Assembly (NCBI GenBank): GCA_016875735.1
Contig: VGOW01000017.1
Coordinates: 1 to 63,633 of the forward strand
Direction of reading: 5' to 3'
Length of the DNA stretch: 63,633 nt
DNA from: Chloroflexota bacterium
GTDB lineage: Bacteria; Chloroflexota; Anaerolineae; Anaerolineales; VGOW01
Of the stretch, positions 5,585 through 6,612 are shown piece by piece; position 1 is the stretch's first letter; each line of letters starts with the position of its first letter. Made by a program: the position numbers and the translations under genes. The notes beneath the pieces were generated by a model, which saw nothing but the letters and a program-made list of their open reading frames with translations, was not told the DNA's origin and did not search any database.

Positions 5585-6219
5585 TACAGGCCGGGCGCGG
5601 CGCTCATGGTGAGCAAATGTCTCATGCGTTCGGCTTTGGTGCGGAGGTAGTGGGCGTTGTCGGCGTGCACGGTGGGTTGAAGCGGCACGCGCGCCGTGAC
5701 TCTGACTCCGAGCTGGCGCAGGCTTTCGATCTTGTGCGGGTTGTTGGTGAGCAGGCGAATGGAGGGCACGCCGAGGTCTTCGAGGGCGAGGGCGGCCACG
5801 CCGTAATCGCGCTCGTCGGCTTGATGGCCGAGAGCGAGGTTGGCCTCCACCGTGTCGTAGCCTTGATTGCGCCGGTGTTGAAATTGAGATAGAAGTGGAT
5901 GGCGGCGGTGATGAGGGTGAGCGCGATGATGGCAACGCGAAGTGTGGGGCGATTCATGGCCTCTCCTTGTGAGTCGTTGGGGATGCTCGCCGCAATCACA
6001 GCGGCGCGAGCCGAGCACGTCGCCGGTGAAACACTCGGAGTGCACGCGGGCCAGCACATCGGCCTTGCCGCGAACGTCGCCGTAGATCAGCGCGAGGTGT
6101 TCTTTGTCGTCGCGGTTGCTCATGTAGAGGGCGAGCTCGAACTCACCCTCGGCGGCGGGGATGCGGGCCGAGACCATGCGGGTGACGGTCAACGGGAGCG
6201 GCGGGGCGGCGGTCAACAT
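5584..6219 (-). CDS. ribA: GTP cyclohydrolase II, central core replaced
   Basis: The N- and C-terminal parts are clear GTP cyclohydrolase II: [17 protein letters not shown], then the zinc site [18 protein letters not shown] with three cysteines, and later [20 protein letters not shown]. Between CDCGE and GYDT the family has about 41 residues, including the GTP-binding EGRGIGL segment. Here those 41 positions are read from a 118-bp exact copy of the start of the neighbouring membrane-protein gene in a foreign frame, rich in His and Arg. The frame stays open, but the enzyme should be inactive. Gene conversion or misassembly are the two explanations. It starts 14 bases past the upstream gene. 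Confidence 0.8.
   Translation of the reverse strand: [211 protein letters not shown]
5868..5985. repeat. 118-bp exact duplication, copy 1 (inside ribA)
   Basis: This stretch is identical base for base to 6495-6612. It lies inside ribA and replaces its catalytic core. The copy contains the first codons, start codon and upstream region of the membrane-protein gene at 6234-6584. Confidence 0.95.
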
Positions 6220-6233
6220 ATTCGGCGGGCCGG

Positions 6234-6584
6234 TCAATTGTCTTTGTGCATCCACAGCGCGGCGAGTAGAATCACTTCTACAATTTTGTCGATCATGCCC
6301 ACCGGGTTGGCAAAACTCTTCGCACCGTTCACGGCAAAGTAGGCGACGATGGTGAGGGCGGTGAAGCCCATGTAGGCATACCACAGCAACTTGCCCCGCC
6401 CCTCAAGAAACGGCAGGGGCGCGAACTTGAAGAAGGCAACCAGCAGGCCGAGATAGCCCAGCGCGTTGAGGGTGAAGGCGGGCTGGAACACGAATGCGCC
6501 GGTGTTGAAATTGAGATAGAAGTGGATGGCGGCGGTGATGAGGGTGAGCGCGATGATGGCAACGCGAAGTGTGGGGCGATTCAT
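6234..6584 (-). CDS. Small integral membrane protein of unknown function
   Basis: I do not recognise a named family with confidence. The 116-residue protein is mostly hydrophobic and has about four predicted transmembrane helices: RVAIIALTLITAAIHFYLNF, ALGYLGLLVAFFKFA, WYAYMGFTALTIVAYFAV and GMIDKIVEVILLAALWM. It is the first gene of the minus-strand pterin-like cluster. GTP cyclohydrolase II follows after 14 bases. Its first codons and upstream region are the source (or twin) of the 118-bp duplication found inside ribA. Confidence 0.75.
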   Translation of the reverse strand: MNRPTLRVAIIALTLITAAIHFYLNFNTGAFVFQPAFTLNALGYLGLLVAFFKFAPLPFLEGRGKLLWYAYMGFTALTIVAYFAVNGAKSFANPVGMIDKIVEVILLAALWMHKDN

Positions 6585-6612
6585 GGCCTCTCCTTGTGAG
6601 TCGTTGGGGATG
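6495..6612. repeat. 118-bp exact duplication, copy 2 (start of membrane-protein gene)
   Basis: Identical to 5868-5985. Here the sequence is in its natural context, because it spans the ribosome-binding region and first codons of a complete gene. This is therefore the likely original copy. Confidence 0.95.

Follow-up and report, generated by a model that had tools for sequence, protein, structure and literature searches.

The ribA gene of the window, the whole 63,633 nt stretch analyzed here (contig C17 of a 150-contig draft genome of 4.15 Mb that is 97.8% complete), carries a 118-bp copy of the start of a neighboring gene in place of its EGRGIGL core. This copy is most likely a local assembly or finishing artefact (probability about 0.85), and the ribA gene of the true genome is most likely intact. 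Positions 5868-5985 and 6495-6612 are identical at 118 of 118 bases, as had been claimed from the letters alone, and mismatch immediately beyond both ends. The two copies lie in direct orientation at a spacing of 627 bp and form the longest exact direct repeat of the window, far above chance expectation.

To tell donor from recipient we compared the region with G001, a genome of the same genus, in which the same two genes adjoin and ribA is intact. The 116-aa protein encoded upstream of ribA shares 69% identity with its G001 orthologue over its full length, including the part specified by the donor. Because G001 harbors both this orthologue with the donor part and an intact ribA, the copy at the 116-aa gene is, by this comparison, the native one and the copy inside ribA the intruder. 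The 116-aa gene also has weaker matches at about ten relatives' loci. Its product matched nothing in Pfam and NCBIfam, nor in a first search of public genome contigs that did not include the window's own genome.

Features of the ribA region, with window coordinates and the basis of each assignment
Feature	Coordinates	Strand	Basis
GT4-like glycosyltransferase, truncated after about residue 259	2599..3342	-	60% identity to G001 GT4 residues 1-259 only
6-pyruvoyl tetrahydropterin synthase family (PTPS) gene	3420..3797	-	PF01242 E 1e-24; conserved neighbor
Zinc-type dehydrogenase-like gene	3881..4873	-	weak ADH_zinc_N matches; neighbor conserved in relatives
RibD C-terminal-type reductase, downstream of ribA (start approximate)	4952..5590	-	PF01872 E 3.5e-42
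ribA (GTP cyclohydrolase II) frame, 211 aa, open throughout, core replaced	5584..6219	-	PF00925 E 3e-44; NCBIfam RibA models
118-bp copy in place of exactly 118 bp of ribA, EGRGIGL core included	5868..5985	-	exact repeat; sharp edges; inside without homology to G001 ribA
Intact 116-aa putative membrane-protein gene, upstream of ribA	6234..6584	-	G001 orthologue, same place
Donor: 28 nt upstream plus first 30 codons of the 116-aa gene; native site	6495..6612	-	orthologous gene start in G001 matches

The exchange is neutral in length. The interval from CDCGE to GYDTVEAN has the same length, 41 codons, in the window and in G001, and in 80 ribA loci taken from public genomes and aligned to G001 as the reference, it carries the EGRGIGL core and aligns without an indel in every case (80/80). 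The sequence-only reading, which had described 41 codons replaced by 41 with the frame kept, thus holds against G001 and all 80 relatives. Since the interval is free of indels throughout this sample, the ancestral length appears certain for practical purposes, and 118 bases were swapped for exactly 118. Nucleotide identity to G001 amounts to 10-20 per 20 bases in ribA on both sides of the copy and drops to 4-7 per 20 in bins that lie entirely inside it. A segment at odds with all relatives and bounded by such sharp edges is what an assembly error would leave. Outside the copy, the differences from G001 ribA number 17 at first, 9 at second and 42 at third codon positions, and this remainder of the gene looks constrained.

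At the protein level, the chimera is 67% identical to G001 RibA overall and scores well above the family cut-off (PF00925, 150.9 bits against 23.3). It falls short of the NCBIfam ribA equivalog domain (166 against a cut-off of 205.85), as expected because the core is lost. The cysteine motif C-x-D-C is kept together with the upstream HSEC, which we take to be the zinc site known from E. coli RibA. Between CDCG and G-x-D-T, the segment is replaced: the chimera has lost Y, Q, E, the two G of EGRG, IGL, K, AY and LQ, each of which is invariant or nearly so across the 80 relatives. At least 95% of these relatives agree at 18 positions of the replaced part, 17 of which are gone in the window, bearing out the loss of the EGRGIGL core noticed earlier; the single residue kept, an Arg, is a coincidence. 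The family consensus is matched at 4 of the 41 residues in the chimera and at 35 of 41 in G001. That the chimera might be a functional new enzyme variant can draw on the open frame, the intact C-D-C motif and the intact C-terminal half, but with one of 18 highly conserved positions retained, and with the 41 new residues being the start of another gene read out of frame, this seems hardly credible. Everywhere outside the replaced core, the protein resembles E. coli RibA (PF00925, PDB 2bz0).

The ribA gene belongs to a conserved minus-strand operon (2599-6219) of ribA, RibD_C, dehydrogenase and PTPS genes, usually followed by a GT4 gene and sometimes preceded by the 116-aa membrane-protein gene. 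The first four genes occur in the same order at 26 of the 80 loci, in Chloroflexota, in Methylococcaceae and other Gammaproteobacteria, and in records labelled Bacteroidetes and Spirochaetes. The operon appears to employ GTP cyclohydrolase II apart from riboflavin synthesis; from the enzyme families one might guess at a modified pterin- or pyrimidine-like product. A literature search on the operon returned nothing specific. The GT4 gene of the window is itself damaged: no close match to its remainder was found elsewhere in this genome, and its truncation point leads into a tyrosine recombinase tail (PF00589, E 4.8e-5) near a tRNA-Lys gene (2224-2297). The region 2224-2734 either bears the scar left by an integrated element or is another questionable join. 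We also considered the truncation as part of the same artefact as the ribA patch, which was not supported, given the integrase-like tail beside a tRNA gene.

The sequence-only reading had further suggested looking for another intact ribA, and none is present: the genome holds no second PF00925 gene. Neither ribB (DHBP synthase, PF00926), ribH (lumazine synthase, PF00885) nor riboflavin synthase (PF00677) was detected in this 97.8% complete genome, and a survey of five genomes of the genus gave a single PF00885 match, weak and below the cut-off, in G002. A riboflavin-operon reading of ribA was therefore rejected, as these three enzymes were not found. The window's RibA thus differs from GTP cyclohydrolase II in its missing core, in its operon and in the lack of these detectable partners, and feeds no recognisable riboflavin pathway. 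Because the partners went undetected and ribA lies in a different operon, loss of ribA would not equal loss of a working riboflavin pathway. Riboflavin auxotrophy, or a route that escaped detection, is possible in this genome.

How the copy came to lie in ribA had been put down to either a very recent gene conversion or an assembly error. Identical, directly oriented copies 627 bp apart could seem to favor ectopic gene conversion. Gene conversion requires homology between donor and recipient, however, and G001 and the 80 relatives indicate that the recipient had none with the donor, neither within the tract nor next to it; no more than about 2 nt agree at the edges, so pairing would have had no basis. 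Conversion therefore does not fit, and in its ordinary form it is refuted unless the ancestral ribA contained a donor-like segment, which leaves it a vanishingly small share of the probability. Of the two origins proposed, an error of assembly or finishing is the better supported.

A real and very recent event of another kind is unlikely: in replication or break repair, a nascent strand would have switched to the start of the neighboring gene, 627 bp away, and copied 118 nt there before returning. If so, ribA would have been destroyed in the strain or in part of the population. An open frame and a local copy in direct orientation are possible outcomes of template switching; the operon may be decaying, as the truncated GT4 gene would indicate; and loss of ribA need not kill, as the remaining riboflavin genes are absent. 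Against this, a return at exactly +118 is mechanistically unmotivated, a coincidence that we estimate at about 1 in 100; non-homologous templated repair would leave deleted and inserted lengths unrelated. The microhomology at the junctions is at most about 2 nt. The event would also have to have been caught at once, since ribA shows no further decay and the copies have not diverged. That we do not rate it lower is mainly because the truncated GT4 gene leaves room for operon decay.

The artefact remains the preferred explanation, and the event most likely took place in the data rather than in the cell. The true genome would carry an intact ribA, of which 118 bases would have been overwritten in register from 627 bp away, whether in assembly, in gap closing or at another point in the handling of the sequence. 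An overwrite at the level of the record would account at once for the exact length, the exact identity, the edges that are arbitrary to both genes and the absent homology. The copies show zero divergence over 118 bp and so no sign of age, and the patch appears to be near short-read length, with its donor within typical insert distance. Assemblers, IDBA-UD in particular, can output local stretches without support from a single read (PMC7111523). The local assembly errors in MAGs described there (Genome Res. 2020) are alike in that a short consensus stretch, which may lack read support, breaks a protein-coding gene in an otherwise sound contig, but unlike in that the present patch is an exact, length-neutral copy of sequence 627 bp away. 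Misassembly by repeat collapse would not be enough, since the repeat would not exist in the true genome; the patch would have to come from chimeric reads, local assembly, gap closing or a later treatment of the sequence. Several points count against the artefact. A de Bruijn assembler alone outputs only k-mers found in reads, so each junction would have to stem from a chimeric read, a local assembly step, gap filling or subsequent handling. An exact length match is unusual for a gap filler. The truncated GT4 gene is a second lesion in the same operon and would fit real decay.

We sampled 20 stretches of 20 kb on other contigs for similar replacements and found none comparable in the approximately 464 kb of this genome covered. 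The other strong repeats sampled were domain or tandem repeats, such as tandem repeats on contigs C4 and C9, or the hdrA start. On contig C2 (L029), 14420-15307 encodes a protein with two near-identical tandem domain copies, an in-frame duplication (173 bp with one mismatch, period 387); the duplicated domain resembles a PCu(A)C copper chaperone. A 92-nt stretch of the hdrA gene start occurs twice, at 30964-31055 and 31544-31635 (96% identical, 580 bp apart), flanking a 134-aa membrane-protein ORF (31111-31515), while G002, of the same genus, has a single copy and a far shorter interval there. The loci of the 80 relatives contain no exact non-overlapping repeats of at least 60 bp.

If the replacement is an artefact, it serves only as a warning: annotation should treat ribA in this genome neither as a natural variant nor as a lost function, and local overwriting that is length-neutral easily escapes notice since it leaves an open frame. 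If real, it would be an in-register non-homologous replacement, an unusual kind of mutation outside current mutation models.
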